Shown here: positions 1 through 14,399 of the stretch, in pieces
Layout: each line of letters opens with the position of its first letter
Position numbering within the stretch: the first letter of the stretch is position 1
NCBI RefSeq assembly: GCF_019649055.1
Contig: NW_026570221.1
Coordinates: 2,480,001-2,544,000, forward strand
Length of the DNA: 64,000 nt
From: Paramacrobiotus metropolitanus
Lineage: Eukaryota > Tardigrada > Eutardigrada > Parachela > Macrobiotidae
Direction of reading: 5' to 3'
Translations under genes and position numbers: made by a program
The notes under the pieces: model-generated
Told to the model about the DNA's origin: nothing
The model's database searches: none
What the model saw: only the letters and a program-made list of their open reading frames with translations

Positions 1-9
1 CGGCTCTGA

Positions 10-945
10 GGAAACCAGAATGAGAGCTCGAGTGACGGAAGTCAAAACTCTGGACGGCACGCCGATGACGGCACGGTAGACCAGTCAAAGGTCACCGAAG
101 AGAGAACGGCTACGGATGGACAGAATAAAGATGACTTGAAGGCCGAGACCGGAGGAATGGCACGGTCGGCCGAAAAGGTCAAGGAGGAAAACGCGGATCA
201 AGTTGAGAAGGGAAGTGACGAAGTCAGTCAAAAGGTCACCGAAGGTGGTGGCGCCGTCAGCAGCAACGAGCTGATCGACGAGGGAAAGGTCAAACAGGAT
301 GACCTTTCGGAAAACTCACTGTTCTTACAAGAACAGCTGGAAGAGAACGGTACCAGCCCCACGTCAAGTGACAAGTTTTACACTGACGATGAAGACGAAA
401 CGACGGTACAGACGTCTTTCCATACGGCAATGAAGGAGGCAAACTTAACGAAAGGAATGTTTGATACGACCCTCCAGGACAAGCCAGAAGAGACCTTTGA
501 AGGAATGGCGTCAGGAAGAGCCGACGACCGGGACCAAAGGTCACCATCACCAAAAACATCCGTAATGAATGGATTAAAGCAGCGTGTCAAGGAACTCGAG
601 CAGTTACTTGACGAGAAGAAGAGCCAAGCATTCGCTGCCATTCGAGAACAACGGAATAAAACTATCGAAGTCGAAGCAAGGCTGTATGTGATGGAGCAAG
701 AAAAGGTCACGCTCGAAGACGAAGCGCAACAATGGAAAGTCAGATTTGAAGTTCAGAAACAAGCAGCGGAAGATCTAAGGAAAATGGTCGAAGATCGAGA
801 CGCGGAAGGCATACTCATCGCAGAAGAAGACGGTCTGTCCGAGGAAGCAGCTGAAAGGTCACAGGAAATAGCAGAATTGAAAAATGAGCGTGACCTTTTA
901 CAGTCAAAGGTCAAGGAGGCCGAGAAAAACGTGACGAATCTCTAG
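10..945 (+). CDS. Gag-region N-terminal coiled-coil segment (partial)
   Basis: Open from base 10, after an in-frame TGA at 7-9, with a first ATG at 157, to a TAG at 943-945. The first half is acidic and low-complexity; the second half (from about base 565) is a long charged heptad-type coiled coil rich in E, K and Q. Coiled-coil sequence continues without loss of character in the -1 frame right after the run of five A near 937, so the stop is probably a frame break and not the true C-terminus. I recognise no enzyme domain. Inferred role: assembly or oligomerisation part of Gag, or a separate structural protein upstream of it. The true start may lie left of the window. Confidence 0.6.
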   Translation, partial: GNQNESSSDGSQNSGRHADDGTVDQSKVTEERTATDGQNKDDLKAETGGMARSAEKVKEENADQVEKGSDEVSQKVTEGGGAVSSNELIDEGKVKQDDLSENSLFLQEQLEENGTSPTSSDKFYTDDEDETTVQTSFHTAMKEANLTKGMFDTTLQDKPEETFEGMASGRADDRDQRSPSPKTSVMNGLKQRVKELEQLLDEKKSQAFAAIREQRNKTIEVEARLYVMEQEKVTLEDEAQQWKVRFEVQKQAAEDLRKMVEDRDAEGILIAEEDGLSEEAAERSQEIAELKNERDLLQSKVKEAEKNVTNL

Positions 946-1310
946 CAAATGCGACGAAGTTCACCGGAAAGGTCACCAGCTTGACGGCTGACATCTCGAA
1001 ACTGAAGGATGACCTTAAATTACGCGAAGACCTTGTCAACACGTTACAAGCAGAATTAAAAGAGATGAAAAGGAAACACAACGAAGCGGAAAGCCAGAGA
1101 GATCAAGCAGCAAAGGAACTGCTTGAACTGGCTGAAATAACAAAAACTGAATTCAAGCGACTCAATGACGAAATCGACAACCAAAAGAAAGAAGCAAAGA
1201 AGTGGTTGAAGGAAGCACAACGGTGTGACGAACGGGTCACTGTGCTAGAAGTCGTGAATAAAGAAGGAAAGACAGAAAATGAAAAACAAAAGAAGAGATC
1301 GCCAAATTGA
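939..1310 (+). CDS. Gag-region coiled coil, continuation in the -1 frame
   Basis: This frame takes over from the preceding segment at an A-rich stretch and carries about 120 residues of uninterrupted coiled coil before a TGA at 1308-1310. Within the last 25 bases the coiled-coil character again moves one base back, into the frame that runs to 3910. It is therefore best read as the middle slice of one coiled-coil protein cut by two single-base frame breaks. No catalytic motif is visible. Confidence 0.55.
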   Translation, partial: SLANATKFTGKVTSLTADISKLKDDLKLREDLVNTLQAELKEMKRKHNEAESQRDQAAKELLELAEITKTEFKRLNDEIDNQKKEAKKWLKEAQRCDERVTVLEVVNKEGKTENEKQKKRSPN

Positions 1311-3910
1311 GCGATGAATCAGTCGGATTGGCTACTTCCGTAATGGAAAAGGATGATAAAATTACGGAACTAAAAGTCCAACTGAAAGCAGTTGAGGAAG
1401 AGTGCCAAGCGAGAGGAAGGACCCTCGCAGACAGAGCGGATCGTATTACACGATTGGAAGCAGAAGCTGAGATCCTAAAAGCAGCGAAAATGGATCTCGA
1501 TAAGACCCTTGATAACAGGGCCAGTACAATCTTCGAGCAAATGAGAAAGGTCACCGAAGCAAACAACGATTACGAGAAACTGCGGAAGGACGCAAATGAA
1601 ACCGTGAGACAGCTACAAGAAACAATTAAACAAAGAGACGAAGAAATCAAGACTCTCAAACGCTCGGCAAAACAGAAGGAAACTGAGATCCAACAGCCGG
1701 AACGAATCGAATCTCCGCCCCCTGGATACGGTGAAGTCCACACCGTCGAAGGTAGCTTTCATTTCCAAGCTCCCTTAAAGACGGGGACTGGCCGAGACGA
1801 CGGCCATGATAAAGATAAGGTCAAAGCTGAAAAGGTCACCGACGATACTGAGTTGGCGAAGGGGCACTCAGGACCGACCGGTGGGGTCAATCCTCGGCAA
1901 CAAGAAACAGGACCGAGGGAAACAATCGTCTACAAATCTGACCATCAACCAGATAATCATGAAGATCCACGAGTTCGCCAAAACGAGCAGGAAAGGGTAG
2001 CTCGTGAAGAAGAGAGGCGAGAAAGAGAATACCGCGCGGAATATCACGCTGAAGCACAGCGACTCCGTCGCGAAGAACGGGAATTCAGAGGGATTATGAG
2101 AGCAATGTCTCGAAAGTCAGCGCTGATCGACTACAACGGCAACCGAGAAGCCTTACTCGGTTGGATCCGTCAGGTCAAGGAGACTCAGAAGACGTATGAC
2201 CTTTCGGATGCAGCAATGATGCTGGAAGTCGCCAACGCAGTCAAAGGGGACGCGAAGGCATGGTTTGACGCGGAAAGAGAAATCGATGACGAAGAAGAGG
2301 CGGAAGAGTTAACCGTCGATGAATGGATGACAAAGTTCAAAGAACATTTTGGCGATCGTGACGAAGGGGTCAACGCCTTACGAGAAGCGATGACGAGAAA
2401 GTTCGAGGCTGGCAAAGAAACGCTTGACCAGTTCTATCAGGCGATCATGCGCTTCAAGTCGAAACGGATCATAACTGAGAAGCAGGCTATCGGATTCCTG
2501 ATTCAAGGATGTAAGAATGACAGTGACCTTTATAAGGCACTCCGAGCACAGAAATTCCATAACCCAATGGATATCAAGGAATTCTTCCGCACCTGGTCGA
2601 CTGGCGAAGAAAAGTATAAGGTCACGAGAGGCAATCGAGTCCAAGATGATTGCGTGATCATCCGATCGGGCCAGATCGAAGAAGTCGCGAATGGGCGACA
2701 GAACCAGTTGTGCTCGACGCCGGTGCCAGGATATAATACGGAATTCCCGCCTTTAGGCACCCAAGAAGTGACCTTTGGCAACGGTCGAAATGAAGGTCAG
2801 GTATCGTACGCGACGATCGCGGCGATACAAACAGCTGTTCAGGAAGTAGCCAAGCCTGCGATTGCGGCGATCCAAGCATCAGCTCAGCAAGCGGCAAGAC
2901 CAAAACAGAATCCGCAAGGGAACGCGCAAAGGAATGCCCTGAATGGAGGGCTCGGTGGTCAAGGAATGGCTCAGGCGAATCCGGGCTTTGCTGGCCAGGG
3001 ATTCAACGGCGGCGGGGGAAACCAAGGAAACTTCCGACCGAACCGCGGACAAGGAAATCAAGGACCACGATACGGGTCGCGAGTAGAGCGCCTGTTCACC
3101 ATGATCGACGGATGGGTGGTCAATAACGCGCTGACATGCCAGAACTGCATGTACGGCAACCACTACACACAAGCGTGTTCGTTCACGGGAACACCGTGGA
3201 ATCAGAACCCCAACCGGGTCGTGTATGAAGAATGGTTGATGCTGCGTAATAATCATGGCGGATGGCGCAACGCAATGGCAAATGGTTATGTGCCACAATC
3301 ACGCCAAGGCGGACGGTATGCTGGTCAAGGTGGCCAAGGGAATTTCGCCGGTCAAGGTGGCCAGGCTAACTACAACAATCAAGGAGGCCAGGGCAATTTT
3401 GGCGGCCAAGGGAATTTCGCTGGTCAAGGTGGCCAGTGGAACAACGCTGGTCAAGGTGGCCAGTGGAACAACGGAGGTCAAGGCGGCCAGGATAACTTCG
3501 GAGGCCAAGGCAACTTCGCCGGTCAAGGTGGCCAAGGCGGAGGAAACGGCGGATATGGCCCGGTTAGAGGCGGCTTCCGAGGTAGAGGCAGAGGCCGCGG
3601 CGGAAATCGCGGAAATTACGGCGGCGGCCAATGGAATGGTGGTGGTCAAGGTGGCCAATGGAACGGTGCTGGTCAAGGAGGCCAGTGGAATAATGGTGGT
3701 CAAGGTGGCCAGAATTTTGCCGGTCAAGGTGGCCAGGGCAATTTCGCCGGTCAAGGTGGCCAGGGCGACTTCGGCGGGCAGCAAGGCGGCTTCGTCGGTG
3801 GGAACCAGAACGGTTTCGGTCAGCAAGGCGGAGGCTTTAACTTCGCCCCGGCGAATGGTGCCGGTCAGGCGCAAGGTGCGCCGGTTCAGGGAAACGCTCA
3901 AGGTCAGTAG
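1289..3910 (+). CDS. Gag: coiled coil, capsid-like domain, CCHC knuckle, GQGGQ/RGG tail
   Basis: The N-terminal ~150 residues finish the coiled coil. A helical capsid-like domain of the retrotransposon Gag type follows at about 2,090-2,620 (motifs such as ALLGWIRQV, AWFDAER and FKEHFGD). Then comes an A/Q-rich linker, a zinc knuckle CX2CX4HX4C at about 3,134-3,178 (CQNC...H...C) and a glycine/glutamine-rich tail of GQGGQ repeats with an RGG/RGRGRG patch near 3,575-3,610. Expected role: RNA binding and particle assembly of the retroelement. Because GGTCAAGGTGGC repeats are open in several frames, long overlapping ORFs here on both strands are artefacts. The frame ends in TAG at 3908-3910; sequence of similar character resumes in the -1 frame. 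Confidence 0.75.
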   Translation, partial: KEEIAKLSDESVGLATSVMEKDDKITELKVQLKAVEEECQARGRTLADRADRITRLEAEAEILKAAKMDLDKTLDNRASTIFEQMRKVTEANNDYEKLRKDANETVRQLQETIKQRDEEIKTLKRSAKQKETEIQQPERIESPPPGYGEVHTVEGSFHFQAPLKTGTGRDDGHDKDKVKAEKVTDDTELAKGHSGPTGGVNPRQQETGPRETIVYKSDHQPDNHEDPRVRQNEQERVAREEERREREYRAEYHAEAQRLRREEREFRGIMRAMSRKSALIDYNGNREALLGWIRQVKETQKTYDLSDAAMMLEVANAVKGDAKAWFDAEREIDDEEEAEELTVDEWMTKFKEHFGDRDEGVNALREAMTRKFEAGKETLDQFYQAIMRFKSKRIITEKQAIGFLIQGCKNDSDLYKALRAQKFHNPMDIKEFFRTWSTGEEKYKVTRGNRVQDDCVIIRSGQIEEVANGRQNQLCSTPVPGYNTEFPPLGTQEVTFGNGRNEGQVSYATIAAIQTAVQEVAKPAIAAIQASAQQAARPKQNPQGNAQRNALNGGLGGQGMAQANPGFAGQGFNGGGGNQGNFRPNRGQGNQGPRYGSRVERLFTMIDGWVVNNALTCQNCMYGNHYTQACSFTGTPWNQNPNRVVYEEWLMLRNNHGGWRNAMANGYVPQSRQGGRYAGQGGQGNFAGQGGQANYNNQGGQGNFGGQGNFAGQGGQWNNAGQGGQWNNGGQGGQDNFGGQGNFAGQGGQGGGNGGYGPVRGGFRGRGRGRGGNRGNYGGGQWNGGGQGGQWNGAGQGGQWNNGGQGGQNFAGQGGQGNFAGQGGQGDFGGQQGGFVGGNQNGFGQQGGGFNFAPANGAGQAQGAPVQGNAQGQ
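3310..3790 (+). repeat. GQGGQ-coding minisatellite (GGTCAAGGTGGCC units)
   Basis: Irregular tandem repeats of a GGTCAAGGTGGCCARGG-like unit interleaved with short NNAG/NFAG-coding spacers, interrupted by an RGG patch. Units contain GGTCA but mostly GTGGTCA or CTGGTCA, so only a few add to the AGGTCA count. The repeat encodes the low-complexity tail of Gag. Confidence 0.8.
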
Positions 3911-4236
3911 GCGCCGGTGAGCCTACTGATCGTCCGGAACCGAAACCACCGGATATAGAGGAGCAAGGTGCTCCGCTGCAGGCAAGGACCGCAGCGAGAA
4001 AGGGATGCTGCGAAAGTAACGCAAAGACCCGGAAAAGAAATCCGAGGATTCGAGAAAGTAACTCGAAATCGAGCGAAGGGGCTCGTAAAGGTCAAGAGAA
4101 GGGTGTTAAAAGATTGCCGCAAGGACGGAAGAATTTGACCGAAAGGTCACCGCAGAAAGTCAACTTGACGGGAAGTCAAGAAAGTAACTGCGGGAACAGG
4201 GCTGATGGAAGCAACTCTGCATCCAGCAGAAAGTAA
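3901..4236 (+). CDS. Charged linker after Gag (-1 frame), rich in small hairpins
   Basis: Open in the frame one base behind Gag from before the Gag stop to TAA at 4234-4236. The translation is basic and low-complexity with repeated ESN and KVT triplets, which are two readings of the same GAAAGTAAC words that form hairpin loops in the DNA. No domain is recognised. The -1 relation to Gag is what Gag-Pol fusion by ribosomal frameshifting would need, but I see no canonical XXXYYYZ slippery site at the junction. Confidence 0.45.
   Translation, partial: RSVGAGEPTDRPEPKPPDIEEQGAPLQARTAARKGCCESNAKTRKRNPRIRESNSKSSEGARKGQEKGVKRLPQGRKNLTERSPQKVNLTGSQESNCGNRADGSNSASSRK
3974..3996 (+). repeat. Hairpin, 6-bp stem CGCTGC/GCAGCG
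   Basis: Perfect inverted repeat 3974-3979 with 3991-3996 and an 11-nt loop. It opens the dense hairpin cluster between Gag and protease. Confidence 0.6.
4009..4023 (+). repeat. AAAGTAA-loop hairpin 1 (TGCG/CGCA)
   Basis: Stem 4009-4012 with 4020-4023 around the 7-nt loop AAAGTAA at 4013-4019. First member of the constant-loop family. Confidence 0.65.
4049..4067 (+). repeat. AAAGTAA-loop hairpin 2 (TTCGAG/CTCGAA)
   Basis: Perfect 6-bp stem, 4049-4054 with 4062-4067, around AAAGTAA. The stem sequence is unrelated to hairpin 1 although the loop is identical. Confidence 0.7.
4070..4085 (+). repeat. GAAGGG-loop hairpin 1 (CGAGC/GCTCG)
   Basis: Perfect 5-bp stem, 4070-4074 with 4081-4085, around GAAGGG. 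It begins three bases after AAAGTAA hairpin 2. Other members of this second constant-loop family lie 9-14 kb downstream. Confidence 0.65.
4150..4193 (+). repeat. Nested hairpin: a hairpin inside an AAAGTAA loop
   Basis: Outer stem CCGCAG (4150-4155) pairs with CTGCGG (4188-4193), the same arms as the simple hairpin at 4268-4286. Between them the loop AAAGTAA appears split and enlarged by a second hairpin, CTTGAC (4164-4169) with GTCAAG (4175-4180), followed by another AAAGTAA. It reads as a hairpin inserted into the loop of an older one. Confidence 0.6.
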
Positions 4237-4267
4237 CTGACGGGGAACAGGGCCGACCGAAAGGTCA

Positions 4268-4286
4268 CCGCAGAAAGTAACTGCGG
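4268..4286 (+). repeat. AAAGTAA-loop hairpin 3 (CCGCAG/CTGCGG)
   Basis: Perfect 6-bp stem, 4268-4273 with 4281-4286, around AAAGTAA. An AAAGGTCACC word sits at its left shoulder. Confidence 0.7.
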
Positions 4287-4298
4287 GAACAGGGCTGA

Positions 4299-5513
4299 TG
4301 GAAGCAAGAAAGTCACGAAAGTAACGTGACGCTGCAAGGACAGCAGACCCAAAGGTCACCGCAGAAAGTAACTGCGAGCAAAGGTCACGAAAGTAACGTG
4401 ACGCTGCAAGGACAGCAGACCCAAAGGTCACCGCGGAAAGCAACCGCGAGGAAGAGTGAAGCTACTCTGCGAAAGACGCAAGCGGAAATCTCAAGCGAAG
4501 AGGATGATGAAACACATCACGCGAGATTCCAAAAGTTCGTCGAAAACACGTTTGAAGTTGACGGAATGACCGTAACCGTGCAACGAACGCACGAAGGCGG
4601 TCCAGATAGACCGAAATTCCTTGAGCAGATGGCAAAAGTATTTCAAGCAAGAGCTGCCGAGAAAGATCACGGAAGGGCCGTGACTGCGCAAGGAGCGCAA
4701 GAGACCGAAAGGTCACCTCAAGCAAGAGTTGAAGAAGTGAAAGGTCACGAGGGACAGCCAGTGCAACAGACTCAGGAGTCACTGAAAGAGAAAGGTCACG
4801 GTGAAGTCGCCGATGAACCGAAAGGTCAAGAAAGTAACTTGACTCTGCGAATGGCGCAGCAAACAGTGAAACAGAGCGAAGGGGCACAGCAAGTCTCAGA
4901 TGACTCTCTCGATGAGGCAAACACTCTACAACAGAAGATGGAGTGGCAAAAAGTGGTTTACAGACCAAATGGACGACACGGTATGTGGAAACCAGTTCCT
5001 CCGCCACAAAGGTCACCGCAAGATGTGAGAATTCCCAGAGAAGCTTACTGGGAAGAAAGAGAGAAACAAGATTGGCGGATGAGAAAGCATCTCGAGGAAA
5101 TGGTAAAAGCTTCACAACCGAAAGTTCAAGAGTACTGGAAAGAGAAGAACCAATGTGACGAAAATAACCGTCAGTTTCGAGAGCGGATTGAGAAGGGTGA
5201 ATTACCGCCTCAGTATGGTGAGAAAGTGCCTTTACAAAGGTCAACAAATGGCGGATTTTTCATGTCAAGACCGGAAAGGTCACCGGACTTAGCGCAAACT
5301 CCGCAGAGGGAGAAGTCGTATGACATGACAGAAGCAATCCGGAATGACAATGAAAGGTCACCGCCAAGAACTGACGGATTGTCATCTCAAATCGATCCAA
5401 CTCGCACGAATAACGAAATTGCGAAGAAAATTACAGATTGGATGAAAGAAAACGACCATAAGATGGTTGTGTACGAAAGGTCACCAGAGAAAAGAGTGAA
5501 GATGACGAGATGA
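4299..5513 (+). CDS. Linker polyprotein segment with ERSP/KGH/KVT words
   Basis: Open from 4299 to TGA at 5511-5513. The protein is polar, rich in Q, K, E and R, and has no recognisable domain. Its most frequent words (ERSP, KGH, KVT) are three frame readings of GAAAGGTCACC, so they reflect the nucleotide motif and not a peptide repeat. The first 50 codons are a 72-bp tandem repeat. The character continues in the -1 frame after the AAAA at 5490-5493. It probably forms the disordered region between Gag and protease; function unknown. Confidence 0.5.
   Translation, partial: WKQESHESNVTLQGQQTQRSPQKVTASKGHESNVTLQGQQTQRSPRKATARKSEATLRKTQAEISSEEDDETHHARFQKFVENTFEVDGMTVTVQRTHEGGPDRPKFLEQMAKVFQARAAEKDHGRAVTAQGAQETERSPQARVEEVKGHEGQPVQQTQESLKEKGHGEVADEPKGQESNLTLRMAQQTVKQSEGAQQVSDDSLDEANTLQQKMEWQKVVYRPNGRHGMWKPVPPPQRSPQDVRIPREAYWEEREKQDWRMRKHLEEMVKASQPKVQEYWKEKNQCDENNRQFRERIEKGELPPQYGEKVPLQRSTNGGFFMSRPERSPDLAQTPQREKSYDMTEAIRNDNERSPPRTDGLSSQIDPTRTNNEIAKKITDWMKENDHKMVVYERSPEKRVKMTR
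4312..4448 (+). repeat. 72-bp tandem duplication with four AAAG(T/C)AA-loop hairpins
   Basis: Two in-frame units with a period of 72 bp. Hairpins: GTCACG/CGTGAC at 4312-4330 and again at 4384-4402; CGCAG/CTGCG at 4360-4376; CGCGG/CCGCG at 4432-4448 with loop AAAGCAA. The last two are the same position in adjacent repeat units: both stem arms changed together (CAG/CTG against CGG/CCG) so pairing is kept. Confidence 0.75.
4825..4859 (+). repeat. AAAGTAA-loop hairpin (GTCAAG/CTTGAC) plus CTGCG/CGCAG hairpin
   Basis: Stem 4825-4830 with 4838-4843 around AAAGTAA, inside coding sequence and 380 bp away from the main cluster. It is followed at 4845-4859 by CTGCG/CGCAG around AATGG, a loop like that of the hairpin at 18,499-18,516. 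The left arm of the first contains AGGTCA. Confidence 0.65.
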
Positions 5514-5653
5514 CCTTTGCGGATGAAATTACGCAAGAGATAATGGCAAAGTTGCAAGAAAAACCGTCCAAAGATGTGCGCAATGAAAGGTCACAATACG
5601 AAGTTATTGCGCAAGTGATAAAGGTCACGAGAACGCACAAGAGAAGGGTTTAA
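5492..5653 (+). CDS. Linker segment in the -1 frame before protease
   Basis: This short frame opens at the AAAA of 5490-5493 and ends in TAA at 5651-5653. It keeps the charged, ERS-containing character of the previous segment. Its main value is as a link in the chain of -1 frame steps; the next segment again continues one base back, near 5,617. Confidence 0.4.
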   Translation, partial: KSEDDEMTFADEITQEIMAKLQEKPSKDVRNERSQYEVIAQVIKVTRTHKRRV

Positions 5654-5964
5654 TGTGCGAAGTGGCAAAGGTCACGGGTAAAGAAAACGCTGCGAAGGAG
5701 CAGGCGAATGTCTTACCGAAATCAAAACGGATCGAAAAGTTCTCAGATGTGCGACCCGACGTACCGAAACGGATAGATCGTTGGAGCTCAAAAGGTCTGA
5801 TAGAGAGCAAGCACACTGCACCAATTCCAGTCAAGTGTCGAATAAGAGTCTTGAAACTCGAAGATGGAAATTTACCGAAACGAATAGAAGCTTACACCCA
5901 CGAAGTCAAAATCGGAAATAAAAGGTCATGGCAATGCTTGACACGGGCGCCGAGACGTCTTTGA
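5617..5964 (+). CDS. Segment leading into the retroviral-type aspartic protease
   Basis: Open to TGA at 5962-5964. The first two thirds are basic linker. The end, from about 5,840, has the beta-strand pattern expected just before an aspartic protease active site (a VKIGN-type strand). The active site itself follows in the -1 frame after AAAA at 5920-5923. Processing of Gag-Pol is the expected role of the complete domain. Confidence 0.5.
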   Translation, partial: DKGHENAQEKGLMCEVAKVTGKENAAKEQANVLPKSKRIEKFSDVRPDVPKRIDRWSSKGLIESKHTAPIPVKCRIRVLKLEDGNLPKRIEAYTHEVKIGNKRSWQCLTRAPRRL

Positions 5965-6029
5965 TTTGTCAACAGTTCTGTGAAAGGAATGGCCTCCAGA
6001 CTGTAAGACTACCACCGAAAAGAAGGTGA
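5922..6029 (+). CDS. Aspartic protease active-site segment (DTGA)
   Basis: In this frame LDTGAETSLIC at 5937-5969 is the catalytic motif of a pepsin-like retroelement protease. The frame ends in TGA at 6027-6029, and protease sequence goes on in the -1 frame (VMIKGISG, then the VLLGFDFL strand near 6,150-6,180). The protease is thus spread over three frames within 300 bp. The domain call is firm; whether it is made as a working protein depends on whether these frame steps are real. Confidence 0.7.
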   Translation, partial: KVMAMLDTGAETSLICQQFCERNGLQTVRLPPKRR

Positions 6030-9000
6030 TGATCAAAGGGATCAGCGGAACGTCAGGCTTCGAAGTAACGCACTACTGCGTAGCACCAGTGACCTTAAGA
6101 AGGAAAACGAGTCAACACTCGTTTTACGTCAGACCAGCGTCAGACGATGTCCAAGTCTTACTGGGATTCGACTTCCTCGCAAAGAAATTCATCCTGATAG
6201 ACGGGGATGACGAGGAAGAACGAGAAACTGAAGCTGAAGATGACGAGCCGAAATCCTCTGCAAAAGTCAATGCAGGAAAGGTCACCGAACTTCAACAAAG
6301 AAATAATTCGGGGCAAACGGCTATCCCAGTACCAGAGGCACAGGGATCGAAAGATAATAAACAAAACGAGAACGGTGAAAATCTAATCCCAGTACCAGAG
6401 GCACAGGGATTAAAAAAGGCTGAAAGAAGCAAAAGGTCACTGAAGTCGAAAGGGACACAAAGGTCACCAACGATGGAACAAATCAAGATAATGCAAGCAG
6501 AAGCACTGATTGCAAAGAAACAGTCGCTAGTGCCAGGAATGGAGTGGTCAAGGCTACTCCCAGTACCAGAGGCACTGGGCACGAGAATGGTTGGGCCCAG
6601 GACAGAGCCAGGACTGATGAACAGCGACGAAAGAGCACTATTCTCGGAAATACGAGATCAAGCCATAAAGCAACTGGATGCAAGCCATAAAGCAACTGGA
6701 TGCAAGGAAAACGGAGCATGCAAGGAAAACGGAGCACCCTCTTGCTTTATCACGTGGTTCGAAAAACGGAGCACTTTCGAGCCGCGTGATAAGGCAAGAG
6801 GGCGGATGAAAGGTCGAGACACGCGCCTGCGCAAAGAGGTAGCAGAGAGTAGTCGTCGTCTTACTTCCGAACCACGCTCTGCAGATGAAGAAATCGAAGT
6901 CATCGAAATATCATCAGATAACAGCGTAATCGAATTCATAAACGATGACGAATGGACAGATACCGATTCCGGAGAAACGGATAAGCGAGTTATCGTCCGT
7001 CCTGAACCGAGACAACGGATGCCGGAAGGGAACAATCGCGTCATTTCCCGCAAACCAAGAGAATGGACTGCGGAAGAGAGAGCAACCTCTTGCCATCACG
7101 ATTGGCACGACAGCGATGACCTTTCGATAGCGCGACCTCAAGAAAGATGTGCAAAATGCATGCAAGAAATGACACAAGATGACCTTTCGGAATGGCCGAA
7201 ATGCAATGCAGCAATTGCGCGTCATAAAAGACAAGAAGAAATAGAGGTCAAGTCGATTATGAGAACACTTCCCATGCCGGAACTGTCAAAAGCAACTTAC
7301 CTTTGGCAATGTTATCGAGAATGGTTATCGGTAGTTAAGAACTACATCATCTCCAGAGGAAAGTGGCTCCATCATTGGCAGCAAGAAGCGGATAACTTCA
7401 TTCCCGAAAAGGCGGATAAAAGCGACCCGTGGTATACAAACCCGATTACAAAGCTCGACAGAGAAAGGCGACGAGCAATGGAAGAGAACGAAATATGGGA
7501 GCAAGCGAGAGTTGACTTATTTTGGGAATTCAGAGTCAATTATCTATGGAAAGGTCAAGGACGAGCAATCATTTTCCCAATCGGACTCGGCACAGTAGTG
7601 TACGAATTATTTGACCTTTACCAGGCCTGCCTCAAAAAGGGAAATTTAAGAGAATGGAACAAACAATGGGGCAAAATCCTCGAAGAAGTACCGATATATA
7701 CAGGAGAAATCCCTGAATTAAAGGTCACGCGAAAAAGACGCGAACTCGGATTATTTGGCTATCTGAGAAAAAAGGTGACCTTTGCACCAGATCCAGATGG
7801 AGTGGAGTATCCCGAAAGAGGCGGAGATACTTGGTGCATGTATGAGACGGTACCGAACAATGACTGGACTACAGAAGAACTGATGGCAAATTGCGTCTTT
7901 ATCGGCGATAAGAGACCGAAAGGTCACAGCACAAGCGCTGAAAAAGAAAGCGGCACAAGCGCCGAAGAAGAAAAGAACAAAGATAACGGCACAAGCGCCG
8001 AAGAAACCAAAGAAAAAGAACAAGAGGTCAGCACAAGTGCTGCTCAAGAAAACGGCACAGGCGCCGAAGAAGAGGAACCAACGCACACGGCGTATGAGTT
8101 GGCTCAGATGATCAAGGAACTGAACCAGGCGTTTCGGGATAAGGAAAACGGAATCCCGGTAACAGAGGCAAAAAAGGCTCAAATGTCGCCGCAAGAGAAG
8201 AAAGCAGCGTCGTTAGTGGCTTCACTACAAAGGTCACTCGGTAACGGTGAGGAAGGGCCACCAACCGAGAAGAACGAAAGGTCACTAAACGCGATGCTGG
8301 AAGAGGAGCCAGAAAGGTCAGTTCCGAAAGTTGACGAAGGGTCACCTGAAACTGGCGAGGAAGGGCCGCCAGTTGGAAAAGCAAAAAGGTCACAGAATAC
8401 CGCTCAAGTAGATGATAGCTCGGAAGACGATGAAAGGGATAGGTCACGAGCAAGGATTCGTGCAACACGAACAAATCCGAGGATAGCAGCACGAAACGGA
8501 CGAAAGTCCAAGGAAACGGACAAACCTCTGCCCGAAAAGCGAAAAGCGAAAAAACTTAGCGCTCCCAAGGATGAAGGCGATGACCTTTCAACAGAAAGTG
8601 AAGACGAGGGTGTCGATGAACGACCAATCGGAAAAAGGAGTGAAGGTCAAGCGCTTGAGGTTAATAATAGCAGCGAATCCGACTCGGAATTCTCGAGCAC
8701 AAGTGACAACTCGACCACTTCTGAAGATTCTGGAGTGAGTGACCTTTCGGATCAAGAAGATCTGCTTGACCTCGACGAAGACGATGAAAAGAACGAACAA
8801 CAAGAGAAAGAGATCATTGTTCGAAGAATTAAAGTGCAGAAAGCAAGAATCCCAGAAGGAGCGATCAAGGTTTACAGCGATCAACGAGTTAAGCTGAGAC
8901 CAAACCTTGGCACTCGCGTGAAGGTCAAGATGGGCGTTCATGTGCCACGGAATCAGAAGCTGATGTATACAGCAACTCCTCAAAAGGATAATGAAGTCCA

Positions 9001-11386
9001 ACCGAGAACGGGAGTCACGGACCATAACGGCACTCGATTCGAAATCATTATCGAAAACCGAAGCAAAAGCCGAAAGACCGTAAGGAAGGGCCAATTTCTC
9101 GGTTACGTAGAACATTACGAACACCTCGAGAATGTAAAGGTCAACTCGGCTACTGTCGTGAAAAACATCCTTGAAGATCCCGAAGTGGACGCAAAGACGA
9201 AAGAAGAACTGAACGACATAATTGAAAGATTAAAGTTAGGACCAGACCTAACTGAGGAACAAAAGAATGACGTGCGAAACGCATTTTGGGAGTTTTGGAA
9301 AGTTCTCCCCACGTCAAAGAAACCGTATGGCGACGTCAAAGGGGTAACGCACACTATTGACACAGCCGATGCCAAACCGGTTAAATGCAATCCAGCAAGA
9401 ACAAGTTGGAAAGGTCGTGAATTCATCACAAAGCACATCGAAGAGATGCTACAGCAAGATGTTATTGAACCATCCGATGCGGAATGGAGTTTTCCGGTCG
9501 TACTCGCCGCAAAGAAGAATGGCGACGGAACTATGGGAACAAGATTCTGCGTCAATTACATTTTGCTGAACAAGCTGACGAAAAAGAACAACTATCCACT
9601 GCCGAACCCAGACGAACTGCTTGACGCATGCGCGGGAAACAAGTACTACGGCAAGATGGACTTACAAAGTGGCTTCTGGCAGATCCCAATGGATCCAGCC
9701 TCGAAAGATAAGACAACTTTCGTCACGCAGGACGGAATGTTCCGTTTCAAAAGAATGCCTTTTGGAGTCTGCAATGGACCTGCGACCTTTCAACTTTGTA
9801 TGGATAAAGTCTTGTCGAACGCAAAGAGAATGGGATGCGTTTTCGGCTATATCGATGACGTGATCTTCGCAGGGAAGACCTGGGAGATCTTCATGCAGAA
9901 CTTAAGGAACGTCCTCCAAAGTTTAGTCGACGCAGGCTTCACAATTAAGCCGACGAAATGCGAATTTGGCATGCGCGAAATGGGATTCCTGGGGCATATC
10001 CTCAGCGAGAATGGTATTAAAATGGATCCCGAAAAGGTCATGGCAGTTAATGGCCAAAAGAAACCGACAACTGAACGGCAGTTAAGGTCATTCCTCGGAT
10101 TAGCGAACTATTACCGAAAGTTCATCCTTGGATACGCGCAAAAGACGGCGCATCTCTACGAATTGCTAAGACATGACAAGAACATCAAAAGAGATTGGTC
10201 AGCAATCCATGACCAAGAATTCAATGACCTTAAAGAAGCGCTATGCAAGGATCCAGTATTAAAGAAGTTCGATCCGACAAAGCCGACAGTGATCGAGTGC
10301 GACGCATCAAAGGAAGGGCTAGGTGCGATCTTGTCCCAAGATGGACATCCCATTGCATACGCGAGCCGCGTTTTGCATGGAGCGGAAAAGAATTACGGAG
10401 TAACAGAATGGGAATGTCTGGCGGTAGTCTTCGCCGTCAGAAAGTTCAAGTCGTACATCGACTACTCCGAATTCACAGTGAGAACGGATCACAAAGCTTT
10501 GACGAACCTTTTAAGGTCGGAGTCGAACAAGTCATGCATGAATCCCCGATTGACAAGATGGGCATTGGCACTGCAAGGTCACCGATTCAAGATCGAATAC
10601 AAGCCGGGCAAATACTGCGACAACGCAGATGCCCTTTCAAGAGCGCCAATTGAAGGTCCCACTTGCAACGAAGAAGAGTACGACGAAATCCCAAACTTCG
10701 AAGATTACAAGAACGAACTCAACAGAGAAGAACCTCCGATTGAAGTTTGGCAACTTTTCGTGCAACTAGCTGAAGAAAGGGAAGAAAGGCTGAAGGCCGA
10801 CATGAGAAGGGTTGTGTCGGAAGAGAAAGGAAGCGGAGATATGCGCTCGAGCATAAACGAAGCAGAGCGTAGTCGTCGCCTTACTTTCGAACCCCGCTCT
10901 GCTACCAAGATAAAGGTCAACAGGGTGAGAAAAGAAGCTTCCGAACGAAAAGATGGAAAGGTCACGAAAGACGGTCAGAAAATGGTAGACCAGAATGACC
11001 TTCGCGAAGCAGAAATTCTCTCCGAATACATTCCGGAAGAGTGTCCCATCAGATTGCTGAGATTCCCAAAGAAAATCGAGAAAGGTCACAAGCCTCTTCC
11101 GAGATGCAAGGTCATCAAAGACTGGAATGAACTCAGCACTCCAGTGGTCCGCATCGTCAACCTTCAGGGAGATGAAGAAGAAGAAGATGATACGAACTTG
11201 CAGTTGCGGAACAAGCAGCTAAAAGATCCGCACTTAGCAATGATCATCGATGAATTGGAGCACCTGCAAGATGCAGATAAAAGGTCAAAGTTTGAGACGC
11301 ATTATCAGTTATGGAATGGCATACTGTATCGCGTCAAAGACCAAAAGGAAGACTTGAAAGGACATATGTTGTACCGCTGCAAATGA
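6014..11386 (+). CDS. Pol: protease C-terminus, giant spacer, reverse transcriptase, RNase H, start of integrase
   Basis: Protease C-terminal strands lie at about 6,020-6,200. They are followed by roughly 2.6 kb (about 860 residues) of low-complexity and charged spacer with PVPEA, STSA and EPRS repeats. A conserved pre-RT region starts near 8,820 (IPEGAIKVY). RT runs about 9,400-10,000, with YIDD encoded around 9,848-9,859. RNase H follows (ECDASKEGLGAIL at about 10,295-10,330; RTDHKAL near 10,482-10,503). A spacer then leads to the start of integrase (LWNGILYR near 11,308-11,331). The frame stops at 11,386, and integrase continues in the -1 frame from about 11,355. The inserted spacer between PR and RT is the odd feature; ordinary gypsy pols have little there. 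Confidence 0.85.
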   Translation, partial: TEKKVMIKGISGTSGFEVTHYCVAPVTLRRKTSQHSFYVRPASDDVQVLLGFDFLAKKFILIDGDDEEERETEAEDDEPKSSAKVNAGKVTELQQRNNSGQTAIPVPEAQGSKDNKQNENGENLIPVPEAQGLKKAERSKRSLKSKGTQRSPTMEQIKIMQAEALIAKKQSLVPGMEWSRLLPVPEALGTRMVGPRTEPGLMNSDERALFSEIRDQAIKQLDASHKATGCKENGACKENGAPSCFITWFEKRSTFEPRDKARGRMKGRDTRLRKEVAESSRRLTSEPRSADEEIEVIEISSDNSVIEFINDDEWTDTDSGETDKRVIVRPEPRQRMPEGNNRVISRKPREWTAEERATSCHHDWHDSDDLSIARPQERCAKCMQEMTQDDLSEWPKCNAAIARHKRQEEIEVKSIMRTLPMPELSKATYLWQCYREWLSVVKNYIISRGKWLHHWQQEADNFIPEKADKSDPWYTNPITKLDRERRRAMEENEIWEQARVDLFWEFRVNYLWKGQGRAIIFPIGLGTVVYELFDLYQACLKKGNLREWNKQWGKILEEVPIYTGEIPELKVTRKRRELGLFGYLRKKVTFAPDPDGVEYPERGGDTWCMYETVPNNDWTTEELMANCVFIGDKRPKGHSTSAEKESGTSAEEEKNKDNGTSAEETKEKEQEVSTSAAQENGTGAEEEEPTHTAYELAQMIKELNQAFRDKENGIPVTEAKKAQMSPQEKKAASLVASLQRSLGNGEEGPPTEKNERSLNAMLEEEPERSVPKVDEGSPETGEEGPPVGKAKRSQNTAQVDDSSEDDERDRSRARIRATRTNPRIAARNGRKSKETDKPLPEKRKAKKLSAPKDEGDDLSTESEDEGVDERPIGKRSEGQALEVNNSSESDSEFSSTSDNSTTSEDSGVSDLSDQEDLLDLDEDDEKNEQQEKEIIVRRIKVQKARIPEGAIKVYSDQRVKLRPNLGTRVKVKMGVHVPRNQKLMYTATPQKDNEVQPRTGVTDHNGTRFEIIIENRSKSRKTVRKGQFLGYVEHYEHLENVKVNSATVVKNILEDPEVDAKTKEELNDIIERLKLGPDLTEEQKNDVRNAFWEFWKVLPTSKKPYGDVKGVTHTIDTADAKPVKCNPARTSWKGREFITKHIEEMLQQDVIEPSDAEWSFPVVLAAKKNGDGTMGTRFCVNYILLNKLTKKNNYPLPNPDELLDACAGNKYYGKMDLQSGFWQIPMDPASKDKTTFVTQDGMFRFKRMPFGVCNGPATFQLCMDKVLSNAKRMGCVFGYIDDVIFAGKTWEIFMQNLRNVLQSLVDAGFTIKPTKCEFGMREMGFLGHILSENGIKMDPEKVMAVNGQKKPTTERQLRSFLGLANYYRKFILGYAQKTAHLYELLRHDKNIKRDWSAIHDQEFNDLKEALCKDPVLKKFDPTKPTVIECDASKEGLGAILSQDGHPIAYASRVLHGAEKNYGVTEWECLAVVFAVRKFKSYIDYSEFTVRTDHKALTNLLRSESNKSCMNPRLTRWALALQGHRFKIEYKPGKYCDNADALSRAPIEGPTCNEEEYDEIPNFEDYKNELNREEPPIEVWQLFVQLAEEREERLKADMRRVVSEEKGSGDMRSSINEAERSRRLTFEPRSATKIKVNRVRKEASERKDGKVTKDGQKMVDQNDLREAEILSEYIPEECPIRLLRFPKKIEKGHKPLPRCKVIKDWNELSTPVVRIVNLQGDEEEEDDTNLQLRNKQLKDPHLAMIIDELEHLQDADKRSKFETHYQLWNGILYRVKDQKEDLKGHMLYRCK
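6323..6579 (+). repeat. Three PVPEA-coding repeats, each inside its own hairpin
   Basis: CCCAGTACCAGAGGCAC occurs three times. Copy 1 is closed by ATCCC/GGGAT (6323-6327, 6343-6347), copy 2 by TAATCCC/GGGATTA (6384-6390, 6406-6412), copy 3 by CCCAGT/ACTGGG (6559-6564, 6574-6579). A degenerate fourth copy near 8,145 lacks the right arm. Confidence 0.6.
6737..6802 (+). repeat. 28-bp uninterrupted RNA hairpin inside pol
   Basis: 6737-6764 pairs with 6775-6802 at all 28 positions if G-U is allowed. I traced each pair: 25 Watson-Crick and three G-U, at 6746/6793, 6755/6784 and 6758/6781, around a 10-nt loop. It lies in the open frame. The right arm includes CTTTCGAGCC, a variant of the TTTCGAACC core of the GCAGAGC family, and the encoded peptide contains the related word TFEPR. 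Confidence 0.8.
6842..6882 (+). repeat. GCAGAG...TTCCGAACC...CTCTGC hairpin, copy 1
   Basis: GCAGAG 6842-6847 pairs with CTCTGC 6877-6882; after one mismatch, 6849-6850 pairs with 6874-6875. Encodes a SEPRSA-type peptide. Family member. Confidence 0.6.
7927..8066 (+). repeat. Five STSA/GTSA repeats, each with complementary 4-bp ends
   Basis: Copies at 7927-7940, 7951-7964, 7987-8000, 8029-8042 and 8053-8066. Arms are CAGC/GCTG, CGGC/GCCG, CGGC/GCCG, CAGC/GCTG and CGGC/GCCG around ACAAGC, ACAAGT or ACAGGC. When the first codon is Ser (AGC) the closing Ala codon is GCT; when it is Gly (GGC) the Ala codon is GCC. The synonymous third base tracks the distant nonsynonymous base in all five. Confidence 0.75.
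10861..10903 (+). repeat. GCAGAGC...TTTCGAACC...GCTCTGC hairpin, copy 2
   Basis: Perfect 9-bp stem AGCAGAGCG (10861-10869) with CGCTCTGCT (10895-10903) and a 25-nt loop ending in TTTCGAACCC. In-frame, between RNase H and integrase. Confidence 0.7.
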
Positions 11387-12756
11387 GAAGGGCTATCATC
11401 CATGCACTGCATGATGAAAAAGCAGCAGGTCACCTCGGCTTCGAAAAGACGTTGTCCGCGATCCGGCTCAGATATTACTGGGACCGTATGAGCACGGATG
11501 TGAAGAATTACATCCTCGCATGCCAAGGATGCCAGTTCATAAAGACGCCAAGAAAATGTCCACCCGGAAAGCTCCAAGAGATCAAAGTTGGTCATCCATT
11601 CTTCAGAGTCTATGCGGACTTGAAAGGACCTTTACTCCCAACAAAGAAAAGGGGATATAAATACATCGCGGTCTTTATCGACCAGCTGACGAAGTACGTC
11701 ATAGCGGAGCCAATGAAAACAGCCACCGCAAAAGAATTCGCAAAGGTTTTCGTGAAACACGTAATCTTGGTGCACGGAGCGCCCCATATCCTCCACACGG
11801 ATCGCGGAAGACATTTCACCGCAGAAGTACTGAAAAAGGTCACCAACGTGTTTAAAATCAAACACACGTTTGGAACAGCGTACCATCCTGAGGGCCAAGG
11901 ACAGGTTGAAAGACAGATGCAGACCATCAGCGATGGACTGTCGCAATACCTGAAAGCGGGAAACGAAAGGAAGTTTAACAAATATCTTCCATACGTCATA
12001 TCGGCAATGAACCGTGCAGTACACGCAACGACAGGGTACTCAGCATACTATATGCTCCACGGAAGAGAGATGACCATGCCAGAAGACGTCGTAACAAAGA
12101 CGAACGTTCCCGACGATTATGGTGCACCAGATGAATGGGTGGAAACCATGAAAAGAAATTTGACCTTTTCAGAAGAAGTGGCGAAGTGCAATATCAAAGA
12201 TGCATATGAAAAGCATGCAGAAATCTACAACAAGAAGAAGTCAGAACCTGAATTTAAAGTCGGAGATAGAGTCTTAATCAGACTGCCTAAAGATACAAAG
12301 CAAGGAAAGAAGGAAAATCAAACTGACTTCAAAAACAAATACGACAAAGTGTGGAAGATTCTCAGCTTTCCGAGACCGAACGAAGTCGAGGTCATCGAGC
12401 AAGATGCGGTAAAAGAGCCGGACTTACGGGTCGTTTCGGTAGATCGTCTAAAATCGTGGCACCCGCCGTTACCGGTTCAGAAAAATCAAGCTGGAAGGGC
12501 AGCTTCGGAATCACCTGAGAAAGGTCATGAAATTGCAGAGCATGGCTCTCATACTTTCGAACCACGCTCGCGTAACGACATAGCAGAGCGTAGTTGTCAG
12601 CATACTTCCGAACCACGCTCTGTACCAGCTATGGCAGAAGAGCCGAAAGAGGCAGAAGAGCCGAAAGAGGCAGAAGAGCCAAAAGAGGCGGAAGAGCCAG
12701 GAACGAAAAGAGAGGAAGAAAGAAGAAAGAGAATAAAGATTTCGAAACACCAGTGA
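11311..12756 (+). CDS. Integrase (HHCC zinc domain and DDE core)
   Basis: Integrase sequence starts in this frame near 11,355. The HHCC domain spans about 11,408-11,540 (AGHLGF, CQGCQF). Catalytic-core residues fit at the DLKGP aspartate near 11,616-11,622, the TDRG aspartate near 11,797-11,808 and the GQGQVE glutamate near 11,896-11,913. A C-terminal chromo-like or GPY-like stretch (KVGDRVLIRLP, about 12,260-12,290) follows. The end is repetitive: EPRS hairpin copies and KEAEEP repeats, then TGA at 12,754-12,756. Joined to RNase H by a -1 step. Role: insertion of cDNA into host chromosomes. Confidence 0.85.
   Translation: MEWHTVSRQRPKGRLERTYVVPLQMRRAIIHALHDEKAAGHLGFEKTLSAIRLRYYWDRMSTDVKNYILACQGCQFIKTPRKCPPGKLQEIKVGHPFFRVYADLKGPLLPTKKRGYKYIAVFIDQLTKYVIAEPMKTATAKEFAKVFVKHVILVHGAPHILHTDRGRHFTAEVLKKVTNVFKIKHTFGTAYHPEGQGQVERQMQTISDGLSQYLKAGNERKFNKYLPYVISAMNRAVHATTGYSAYYMLHGREMTMPEDVVTKTNVPDDYGAPDEWVETMKRNLTFSEEVAKCNIKDAYEKHAEIYNKKKSEPEFKVGDRVLIRLPKDTKQGKKENQTDFKNKYDKVWKILSFPRPNEVEVIEQDAVKEPDLRVVSVDRLKSWHPPLPVQKNQAGRAASESPEKGHEIAEHGSHTFEPRSRNDIAERSCQHTSEPRSVPAMAEEPKEAEEPKEAEEPKEAEEPGTKREEERRKRIKISKHQ
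12535..12570 (+). repeat. GCAGAG...TTTCGAACCACGCTC element, decayed copy
   Basis: Same core as the other copies but only GAGC/GCTC of the stem survives, as the right arm reads GCTCGCG. Confidence 0.4.
12583..12623 (+). repeat. GCAGAGC family hairpin, copy 4
   Basis: CAGAGCGT 12584-12591 pairs with ACGCTCTG 12615-12622, with an outer G-T wobble pair. The loop contains TTCCGAACC. Confidence 0.65.
12635..12695 (+). repeat. 18-bp KEAEEP-coding tandem repeat
   Basis: About three copies of a GAAGAGCCGAAAGAGGCA unit at the end of the integrase frame. Simple slippage-type minisatellite. Confidence 0.7.
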
Positions 12757-13247
12757 CAATGAAGCTGAATCAAGAGGCAGGAGACCTCGAAGCAGAGCAT
12801 GGATCTCAAGTGGCGCCTAAGTCAAAGCTTACTCTCGAACCACGCTCTCAAGTAGCAGAGCATGATTCCAAAGATGCTTTCGAACCACGCTCTGCCACCA
12901 ACGGCAAGAATGACCTTTCAAGAGCGGAACAGATAAAAGCCGTCAAAGAACAAGCCGACCAACTTGGCCAACGGATCGCGAACGAAATTGAGAAGCGAAA
13001 GGTCAAGAAAATGAAGAAAACTCCGAAGCCGACTCCAGAACAGATTCTGAGAGGAGAAGTCCAAGACGAAGATGAAGCCGACAAAGCATTACTTGATCGG
13101 ATAACTAAAGGACGAAAACAAATAAACCCGAAAATCAGGCTTATAGGAGTTTATGATATTAAGACTGGAAGTTGGGACGGCGTAAAGGTCATCAGAAATA
13201 AACCTGCTAATCGGAGTCATTTTCGTTGTCGTAGTAGGTTTGTTTAA
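12700..13247 (+). CDS. Post-integrase basic protein segment with EPRS repeats
   Basis: Continues the charged tail of integrase in the -1 frame to TAA at 13,245-13,247. It holds two further EPRS hairpin copies, a lysine-rich helix and an IRLIGVYDIKTG segment. No domain is recognised. Just before the stop, another frame (13,204-13,245) encodes a 14-residue hydrophobic run, LLIGVIFVVVVGLF, followed by basic residues, which would look like a membrane anchor if it were the frame used. Confidence 0.45.
12791..12848 (+). repeat. GCAGAGC family element, copy 5 (weak stem)
   Basis: AGAGC 12794-12798 pairs with GCTCT 12844-12848. The loop is longer than in other copies and ends in CTCTCGAACCAC. Confidence 0.45.
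12855..12895 (+). repeat. GCAGAGC family hairpin, copy 6
   Basis: GCAGAGC 12855-12861 with GCTCTGC 12889-12895, perfect 7 bp, enclosing CTTTCGAACCAC. Confidence 0.65.
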
Positions 13248-13261
13248 CGATAAGCTGAAAA

Positions 13262-14398
13262 ATGGAAGGTCAAGGCGGCAGAAGTTATTGGAATCCGGGA
13301 ACGCCGTCATCGACGAGCGGAACGATTCAGGACCCGGACTTATATGACGATTCAATGAATACGGAGGGAACATACGAAGGGGGATACGACCCGTCTACTA
13401 CGTATCAACAACCCGACGTGGGAATGAGCTCGAACACATGGGGGACTTACGGCACGCAGGTCGGGCCCCAAGGACAAATGATGCCGAATCAGATGATGCC
13501 AAACCAGATGATGCCAAATCAAATGATGCCAAATCAGATGATGCCGAACCAAGGAATGATGGGACAGAATTTCCCATTCCAGCAATTCCCACAGATGTAC
13601 GGCCAAAATATGCCCATGATGAACCAGGGTCAACCGATGCAAGGTCAGTTCGGATATGGAGGAATGGCCCCATTTCCGAACCAGATGCAGGGATTCCCAA
13701 ATCAGATGCAGGGATTCAACCCTCAGCAAAGTCAAGGGCAATTTCGAACACCGAAACCGTCAAGAGGTCAACGTTACCCGGGAGACAGACAAAACACACC
13801 GCGAAGGGGCGGTCAGTCGTCTATTCCGAGAGCGTCGACGAGTGGCCAGGGAACGAGAATGGAGATCCCATCACTTACACCAGTCCGAATCCACTCGCCA
13901 AGATCGACCGGAAGTATTCCGTGGGCAGTGTTAAATGCACCCAGATTCAACGACCCAATCACGGAAACGGATCCGCAGTACAACATTGTGATGGATCCAA
14001 AGGTCACTCTCACAGAGGAAGAAAAGAAGGCTGTGGCGGAGTTTAATGAAAAATGCCGCGAGTTCGTCCAGCTGCATAACGATATCAACGATAACCAAGA
14101 TCAGTACAGGACGGCTCGAAGAACTCACAAGATAACCAGGGGAACCCACCTCCACATGAAACTGGATAAACACGAGGCGGAAGAGTTGCGAAAAGAAAGA
14201 GGTGTTGAAATCAGAACACTGAAGAACAGTAATCCAGTGTTGCGCAACAGGGAATGGCCGAGCGCAGTAAAGACGATACTGATCTTCATGAACCTCATTC
14301 CCCCGGAACCAAAAGAAGAAGAACAGGAGAGAGGAGTCAAAACTCCGGCCGAGAAAGCCCTACTAAGGAAAACCATACGGCAAGCGAACGAGGAATGA
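13262..14398 (+). CDS. Accessory protein with MMPNQ repeats, 378 aa
   Basis: ATG at 13,262 lies directly after an in-frame TGA AAA, so this is a credible independent start. The N-terminal half is G, Q, M, N and P rich with five perfect MMPNQ repeats and is probably disordered. The C-terminal ~120 residues (from about 13,990) form a charged helical region ending in RQANEE. It has no resemblance to Env or any enzyme that I can recognise. It is the first of the post-pol genes. The next coding frame follows within a few codons but in a +1 (or -2) relation. Confidence 0.6.
   Translation: MEGQGGRSYWNPGTPSSTSGTIQDPDLYDDSMNTEGTYEGGYDPSTTYQQPDVGMSSNTWGTYGTQVGPQGQMMPNQMMPNQMMPNQMMPNQMMPNQGMMGQNFPFQQFPQMYGQNMPMMNQGQPMQGQFGYGGMAPFPNQMQGFPNQMQGFNPQQSQGQFRTPKPSRGQRYPGDRQNTPRRGGQSSIPRASTSGQGTRMEIPSLTPVRIHSPRSTGSIPWAVLNAPRFNDPITETDPQYNIVMDPKVTLTEEEKKAVAEFNEKCREFVQLHNDINDNQDQYRTARRTHKITRGTHLHMKLDKHEAEELRKERGVEIRTLKNSNPVLRNREWPSAVKTILIFMNLIPPEPKEEEQERGVKTPAEKALLRKTIRQANEE
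13478..13552 (+). repeat. 15-bp MMPNQ-coding tandem repeat, five copies
   Basis: ATGATGCCRAAYCARATG-type units with a 15-bp period. Differences between copies are synonymous, so the peptide is constant. Confidence 0.85.
13798..13813 (+). repeat. GAAGGG-loop hairpin 2 (ACCGC/GCGGT)
   Basis: Perfect 5-bp stem, 13798-13802 with 13809-13813, around GAAGGG, inside coding sequence. Confidence 0.65.
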
Positions 14399-14399
14399 C

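Follow-up and report, generated by a model that had tools for sequence, protein, structure and literature searches.

The means by which long terminal repeat (LTR) retroelements choose their own RNA are poorly defined. Packaging of Ty3 requires POL and both untranslated regions (UTRs), and its cis-acting packaging sequences have not been precisely defined (PMC11381356). Elsewhere, the RNA of satellite tobacco necrosis virus (STNV) is described as carrying numerous stem-loops whose loop motif is degenerate (PMC3662417), the Gag protein of mouse mammary tumor virus (MMTV) binds an apical purine loop (PMC8096270), and PEG10, a retrotransposon-derived gene (PMC2800197), is related to sushi-ichi. 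Here we describe two sets of hairpins carried by a ~25-kb Ty3/gypsy retrotransposon of the tardigrade Paramacrobiotus metropolitanus, part of which makes up the first ~23 kb of the 64,000-nucleotide stretch of DNA that was analyzed (C1:2480001-2544000, hereafter the window). The first set is a dense array with the loop AAAGTAA in the 5′ part of pol; the second consists of hairpins with the loop GAAKGG (GAAGGG or GAATGG) that run through the element. In both sets constant loops are combined with differing yet paired stems, which suggests an RNA marked with repeated protein docking sites. Among the titles and abstract openings listed in a literature search, none describes an LTR retrotransposon with constant-loop stem-loops dispersed along it.

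The dense array extends from 3960 to 4480. The original prediction, which covered this dense part only, had claimed seven perfect hairpins with the loop AAAGTAA and one with AAAGCAA, and all eight are present on the + strand: TGCG-AAAGTAA-CGCA (4009-4023), TTCGAG-AAAGTAA-CTCGAA (4049-4067), CCGCAG-AAAGTAA-CTGCGG (4268-4286), GTCACG-AAAGTAA-CGTGAC in a first (4312-4330) and a second (4384-4402) 72-bp unit, CGCAG-AAAGTAA-CTGCG (4360-4376), CGCGG-AAAGCAA-CCGCG (4432-4448) and GTCAAG-AAAGTAA-CTTGAC (4825-4843), the last of which looks like a GTCACG/CGTGAC site in which C-G has been replaced by A-T. As also claimed, 4312-4450 is made of 72-bp tandem duplicates (95% match), of which one has CGCAG/CTGCG where the other has CGCGG/CCGCG, and several reading frames are involved, AAAGTAA being read as KVT and as ESN in the open reading frame (ORF) 4326-5513. 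Hairpins with other loops are found at 3960-3974, 3974-3996, 4136-4149 and 4164-4180.

In the array, 7/9 AAAGTAA words are flanked by perfect stems that reach 4 bp or more (4-6 bp). The other two words have stems of 2 bp (4181-4187, + strand) and 3 bp (4230-4236, + strand) in the window copy; at the site corresponding to 4181, many other copies carry stems of 7-8 bp (AGTCAAG..CTTGACT, GAGTCAAG). In the orthologous copy L002, 11/11 AAAG[CT]AA words are flanked by stems of 4-7 bp, and the 12 AAAGTAA words elsewhere in the window have stems of only 0-3 bp. When all 4- to 8-mers were scanned as loops, AAAGTAA had a stem of at least 4 bp at 7/9 sites (2e-15); as a plain word, it is not overrepresented in the window (21 occurrences vs 14.7 expected). 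An arm-swap control is weak for this loop, 10/72 swapped pairs still reaching 4 bp, because stems recur among sites. Shuffled sequence does not reproduce the density of the array: counting stems of at least 6 bp with loops of 3-12 nt, we found 11 hairpins in 3900-4920 against a mean of 1.4 and a maximum of 3 in 30 dinucleotide shuffles. Smaller excesses of stems of at least 6 bp were seen in 1-3900 (15 vs 6.2) and 9000-12800 (14 vs 7.6), and the large one in the host stretch 50000-64000 (166 vs 34 in shuffles) is probably due to tandem and AT repeats. Mean folding z-scores in 150-nt windows (+/- strand) reach -2.55/-2.71 in the array, compared with about -1 in the rest of 1-12800, -0.70/-0.51 in 12800-22400, -0.21/-0.34 and -0.09/-0.22 in the host stretch 22400-57000, and -0.72/-1.03 in the tandem-repeat stretch 57000-64000. 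No Rfam family scored above its gathering score in 1-23000, where the one match with E up to 1 was mir-306 on the minus strand (22.5 bits, cut-off 52). A genome-wide role for GAAAGTAAC was rejected given the lack of enrichment (881+793 occurrences vs 841+844 in a reversed control).

The scan of 4- to 8-mer loops also yielded GAAGGG (9/35 sites, 9 different inner stems, 1.8e-13) and GAATGG (5/38 with a stem of at least 4 bp, 1.7e-6). Taken as GAAKGG, the loop has a stem of at least 4 bp at 14/73 sites along ~20 kb, and 13 distinct inner stems occur among them. These hairpins, all on the + strand, range from 563 to 20690: TAAT-GAATGG-ATTA (563-576, with no copy available for comparison), TGAC-GAAGGG-GTCA (2359-2372), GTCGC-GAATGG-GCGAC (2684-2699), GCCCT-GAATGG-AGGGC (2936-2951), CGAGC-GAAGGG-GCTCG (4070-4085), TATG-GAATGG-CATA (11310-11323), AAGCTG-GAAGGG-CAGCTT (12488-12505, with an AAAGGG loop in the other copies listed), ACCGC-GAAGGG-GCGGT (13798-13813), GTGC-GAAGGG-GCAC (15049-15062), GGCTGA-GAAGGG-TCAGCC (15969-15986), CTGTC-GAAGGG-GACAG (16649-16664, unformed in L044 and L045), TAGC-GAAGGG-GCTA (18480-18493, deleted in two copies), CTTAGC-GAATGG-GCTAAG (18499-18516, the inner four pairs of which are those of 18480) and CGCAG-GAAGGG-CTGCG (20675-20690). 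Ten of them lie inside ORFs and, by hand count, are distributed over the three phases as 3, 3 and 4. Loops switch between GAAGGG and GAATGG among copies at 13798 (GAATGG in L045 and L046) and at 18480 (GAATGG in L049). Many stem-loops with a common loop motif and unrelated stems, the pattern expected of dispersed packaging signals, are found here, with 4/13 sites not conserved above their flanks.

Several controls bear on this loop, namely arm swap, GAAAGG, the reverse orientation and the motif without a hairpin; plain reversal keeps hairpins and so is no control. A stem was found at 0/52 GAAAGG sites, at 1/16 GAACGG sites and at 0/17 sites of the reverse orientation CCNTTC, in 122/19740 pairs of swapped arms, and at 0/29 GAANGG sites of the host stretch 22951-57000. 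As GAAKGG was found by scanning this element, the independent support comes from the conservation test. In copies whose flanks differ by at least 4%, which were usable for 13/15 GAA[GTC]GG hairpin sites, arms at GAAKGG hairpin sites had changed at 97/1300 positions (7.5%) and loops at 53/774, compared with 2093/14442 (14.5%) in flanks. At 55 motif sites without a hairpin, the corresponding values were 668/4400 (15.2%), 292/2640 and 7089/50618 (14.0%). Arms changed more slowly than flanks at 9/13 sites, one of which, 11314, rests on a single copy.

For the array, in an alignment of 35 copies (L036-L040 left out; 298/385 site-rows without length change were counted), 73/3308 arm positions (2.2%), 52/2086 loop positions (2.5%) and 170/2652 flank positions (6.4%) had changed. 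A recount that took the window as reference and was limited to copies with flanks differing by at least 4% gave 86/1260 (6.8%) in arms, 62/784 in loops and 1348/11389 (11.8%) in flanks of the seven AAAGTAA sites. At third positions of pol codons, 60/1111 had changed in arms vs 292/3108 in flanks. Double stem changes were seen in 15 cells, of which 9 keep Watson-Crick pairing and 6 do not; the former comprise A-T to C-G at site 4 (L023, L026 and L033), A-T vs G-C at site 10 (five copies) and one at site 1. In addition, of 16 sequences of the array hairpin CGCTGC..GCAGCG, 10 carry U-A and 5 carry C-G, the remaining one having a gap; the site at 4432-4448 carries an A-T pair with an AAAGTAA loop in L007 and a G-C pair with an AAAGTAA loop in L028, and the site at 4009-4023 reads GGTG-AAAGGT-CACC in L026, L027 and L033. 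Among paralogous sites (alignment A3, consisting of 8 window sites and 3 L002 sites that replace those weak or rearranged in the window), 90% of cells are paired vs 56% when shuffled (score of 0.83 vs 0.21). Slower arms, compensated changes, the use of several frames and the control with motifs lacking a stem support the view that selection on pairing acts on these stems.

Several observations nevertheless weigh against this interpretation. Single-sided stem changes, all uncompensated, account for 43 cells (11 wobble, 15 A.C and 17 other); set against the 9 kept double changes, they indicate that in many copies pairs were lost and not restored, as expected of dead copies. The compensated changes represent few independent events, RNAalifold finds a kept double change in only 4/104 predicted pairs and its covariation term is unfavorable (+2.38), and the synonymous constraint in arms is weak (40/1111 codons vs 148/3108 in flanks). 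Among dispersed sites, arms are not clearly slower than flanks at 4/13 (4075, 16654, 18484 and 18505), those at 18505 changing at about flank speed and those at 18484 faster, and GAAKGG stems are rare in six related loci (2/21, both at one shared site). The loop of the array also differs between families, as detailed below. Finally, fold z-scores are similar on both strands. Wobble pairs are not preferred over A.C (11 vs 15), so RNA over DNA is not proven. The selection on pairing put forward by the original prediction is supported by slow arms and by several compensated changes, including those it sought in other copies, but most single changes went uncompensated.

The lack of wobble preference would also be expected if the hairpins were double-stranded DNA sites, that is, palindromes for a dimeric DNA-binding protein, perhaps with the 8-mer AAAGGTCA overlapping some arms, a word that equals the nuclear-receptor NBRE half-site. 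Arms such as GTCACG do overlap AAAGGTCAC, and the word is conserved and present on both strands. However, a dimer is expected to read arms and not the loop, and the arms differ at nearly every GAAKGG site; moreover, hairpins with the reverse-complement loop were not found (0/17 and 0/3, both small numbers). We regard such DNA sites as improbable.

The alternative contained in the original prediction, a mechanism that writes an inverted copy next to a fixed loop, calls for similar consideration. Template switching, whether in DNA replication or in reverse transcription, could write inverted copies beside loop-prone words without any function being needed, and it accounts for perfect stems and for linked compensatory changes in one event (PMC8794818). 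A comparison of L040 with L037-L039 is compatible with such events: in the first array hairpin, several changes jointly lengthen the stem (CGCAG/CTGCG vs GAACACAG/CTGTGTTC, not polarised). Although template switching is a possible origin for the stems, alone it fails to explain their slower arms, since it gives no reason for arms to change more slowly than flanks only at sites with a hairpin, nor for the strict loop specificity observed between GAAKGG and GAAAGG. We consider it unlikely as a full explanation.

Arrays of related families provide a broader view of the dense class. Six loci with diverged arrays (L037-L040, L058 and L059) have hairpins in the corresponding position that carry different loops, so that the predicted constancy of the loop holds within one family and breaks down beyond it: AATCGGA, AATAGTA, AATGGTA, AATGGCA and a few more are found in (C)GCAG..CTGC(G) stems, next to GATGGC..GCCATC vs ACGGC..GCCGT stems. 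For instance, AAAGGTCACCGCAG-AATGGTA-CTGCGAG in L058 corresponds to AAAGGTCACCGCAG-AAAGTAA-CTGCGAG in the window. When the window, L041 and the six related loci were searched with a hairpin model, 18 matches had E up to 5; the 8 with E below 0.001 all belong to the window array, and the six related loci had none, probably because loops differ. Pairing itself extends across families. Of 36 sites fitting AG[AG]ANNNNACT, a pattern chosen with the outer stem ignored and which omits hairpins closed by C-G before the loop, 25 are distinct, with Watson-Crick pairing at pairs 3, 4 and 5 in 24, 22 and 18 of them vs shuffle means of 20.3, 16.2 and 11.4. The resulting 64/75 Watson-Crick cells were never reached in 5000 shuffles, with the qualification that these sites are related sequences and the p-values optimistic. 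Repeat units in related arrays are spaced at 66-bp (22-codon) steps, and the array lies inside the pol ORF of several copies, as would be the case for a coding minisatellite in which repeats of a disordered pol linker peptide produce hairpins as a by-product. This explanation appears highly improbable given that the hairpins lie in different frames, that some stems are compensated, and that the dispersed GAAKGG sites are not repeats of each other.

The array starts right after a frameshift pseudoknot, within pol. At the gag/pol overlap, the slippery heptamer GGGAAAC (3889-3895, + strand), at which a -1 frameshift is predicted, is followed by a 6-nt spacer and by an H-type pseudoknot around the gag stop codon (3902-3952, + strand), with an 11-bp S1 (3902-3912/3921-3931, one wobble) and a 6-bp S2 (3914-3919/3947-3952, CCGGTG/CACCGG). 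S2 is fully paired in 30/34 loci (one with a wobble), and the pattern of the signal has 62 exact matches in the genome and 0 in the reversed control. All sequence features of a -1 signal are present, namely an X XXY YYZ heptamer, a short spacer, a downstream pseudoknot and pol in the -1 frame. Pol is open in the -1 frame for at least 2000 nt, from 69-81 nt before the gag stop, in 8/20 copies examined, the window copy (L001) not being one of the eight. Judging from sequence, GGGAAAC and the pseudoknot constitute a putative -1 frameshift signal that is conserved in related families too.

This location raises the possibility of translation control, in which the array would be part of the gag-pol decoding signal and would slow or space frame-shifted ribosomes or prevent mispairing of the pseudoknot. 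Distinct hairpins of at least 5 bp in the 452-460 nt 3′ of the signal number 9, 11, 11, 9, 9 and 6 in L037-L040, L058 and L059, and 12 in L002. Shuffle means are 2.2-2.9, and these counts were reached in 0, 0, 0, 0, 1, 16 and 0 of 300 shuffles, respectively; hairpins directly 3′ of a conserved signal, at densities reached in 0-1/300 shuffles for six of the seven loci (16/300 for L059), are what this alternative would predict. On the other hand, a slippery site and a pseudoknot are a known sufficient frameshift signal, and translation control leaves both the dispersed GAAKGG set over ~20 kb and the constant loop unexplained. To our knowledge, no hairpin array lies behind the PEG10 frameshift signal, whereas here an array follows. 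We view a role in decoding as rather unlikely.

Our tentative preference is that the hairpins are kept by selection on both pairing and loop and serve as Gag docking sites on the genomic RNA for its packaging or condensation. The hairpins would be RNA stem-loops of the genomic (gag-pol) RNA, the loop of which would be read by a protein and the stem of which would merely present that loop, so that the RNA would carry many equivalent docking sites. The docking protein would most likely be the element's own Gag, a candidate because a CX2CX4HX4C knuckle and an RGG-like tail make it suited to RNA binding. The sites may help select and condense a very long genomic RNA during particle assembly. Docking sites are favored by the constant loop, the free stem, the + orientation, the use of several frames, the Gag knuckle and the precedents discussed below. 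A wider proposal, which we put forward with greater doubt, is that the two classes, the dispersed GAAKGG hairpins and the dense gag-pol hairpins, the loop of which drifts from family to family, may form a genome-wide Gag recognition code and give an LTR retroelement a system of dispersed packaging signals. In an element with many interchangeable stem-loops of defined sequence, RNA selection could be tested directly with short RNAs and a Gag fragment. Such an element would also lend itself to asking whether selection or template switching maintains the stems, since one genome contains many of its copies, which differ in age.

The carrier lies in a genome of 169.8 Mb. The 3′ LTR (22609-22949, + strand) is 99.4% identical over 341 aligned positions to C1:2478093-2478432, located 1.6-1.9 kb before the window. 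These LTRs, one at each end, put the length of the element at ~25 kb, and their near identity marks this copy as young. Pfam matches occur in the Ty3 order, with RVT_1 and RT_RNaseH in a part of the pol ORF (6026-11386, + strand) that encodes reverse transcriptase and RNase H, then Integrase_H2C2 and rve in the integrase ORF (11311-12756, + strand). Relatives of the reverse transcriptase in the protein database share 32-47% identity among the best 120 of 4667 (8000 candidates scored), with 297, 17.6 and 412 at about 43-46% among the matches listed; within the genome, 1658 candidates were found at first look and 86 were scored. The gag ORF (1307-3910, + strand) has no Pfam match, and its translation contains the zinc knuckle at about 3137-3178 and the RGG-like tail. 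Four long ORFs (378, 460, 621 and 776 aa) occupy 13262-21410, 3′ of the integrase, and have no Pfam match up to E 0.01. In pol, five repeats at 7927-8060 have AGC..GCT (two) and GGC..GCC (three) codons flanking ACAAGC-like loops, the CAGC/GCTG and CGGC/GCCG stems of which match, a compensated synonymous choice.

The AAAGGTCA word recurs from 87 to 22380, with 73 forward and 20 reverse occurrences in 1-22400 and 112 in the whole window vs 3.4 expected. Forward words in nine listed ORFs are distributed over the three frames as 16, 22 and 19. In other copies, 3.2% of its positions had changed vs 11.3% in flanks (595/721 intact), while random 8-mers in the same comparison gave 12.8% vs 12.7% (297/702 intact). 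The body (1-21400) contains 73 forward words vs 14 in the opposite orientation, TGACCTTT, and the latter accounts for 8/8 words of the leader (-644 to -301, in L041) and 6/6 of the 3′ region (21411-22380); leader and 3′ words could pair with body words in RNA. A 91-bp tandem repeat of 8.6 copies at 57649-58427 has a consensus unit with AAAGGTCA and several GTCAGTACTTTA-like words.

Several described systems bear comparison with the element. It belongs to the same Ty3/gypsy superfamily as yeast Ty3 genomic RNA, but Ty3 uses +1 frameshifting while this element has a putative -1 signal, and the part of the Ty3 account drawn on here mentions no constant-loop set (PMC11381356). Its -1 signal resembles that of PEG10, with GGGAAAC, a short spacer and a downstream pseudoknot at the frame overlap (PMC2800197). 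Template-switch hairpins share with those of the element perfect stems and compensatory changes, both explained by the mechanism, but template switching is a mutation mechanism, and fixed loop words over 20 kb fall outside that account as far as we draw on it (PMC8794818). The MMTV ssPurines GGAGAAGAG likewise form a purine-rich apical loop on a stem in genomic RNA; the MMTV case is described as one stem-loop (SL4) in a packaging region comprising the 5′ UTR and the start of gag, whereas the present sites are many and lie in gag, pol and downstream ORFs (PMC8096270). The packaging signals of STNV and MS2 are likewise many short stem-loops on one RNA, which can be recognized only through a short loop motif set in a stem, and their coat-protein contacts have been described (PMC3662417); the present hairpins differ in belonging to an LTR retrotransposon, in being known from sequence alone and in having a stricter loop, GAAKGG.

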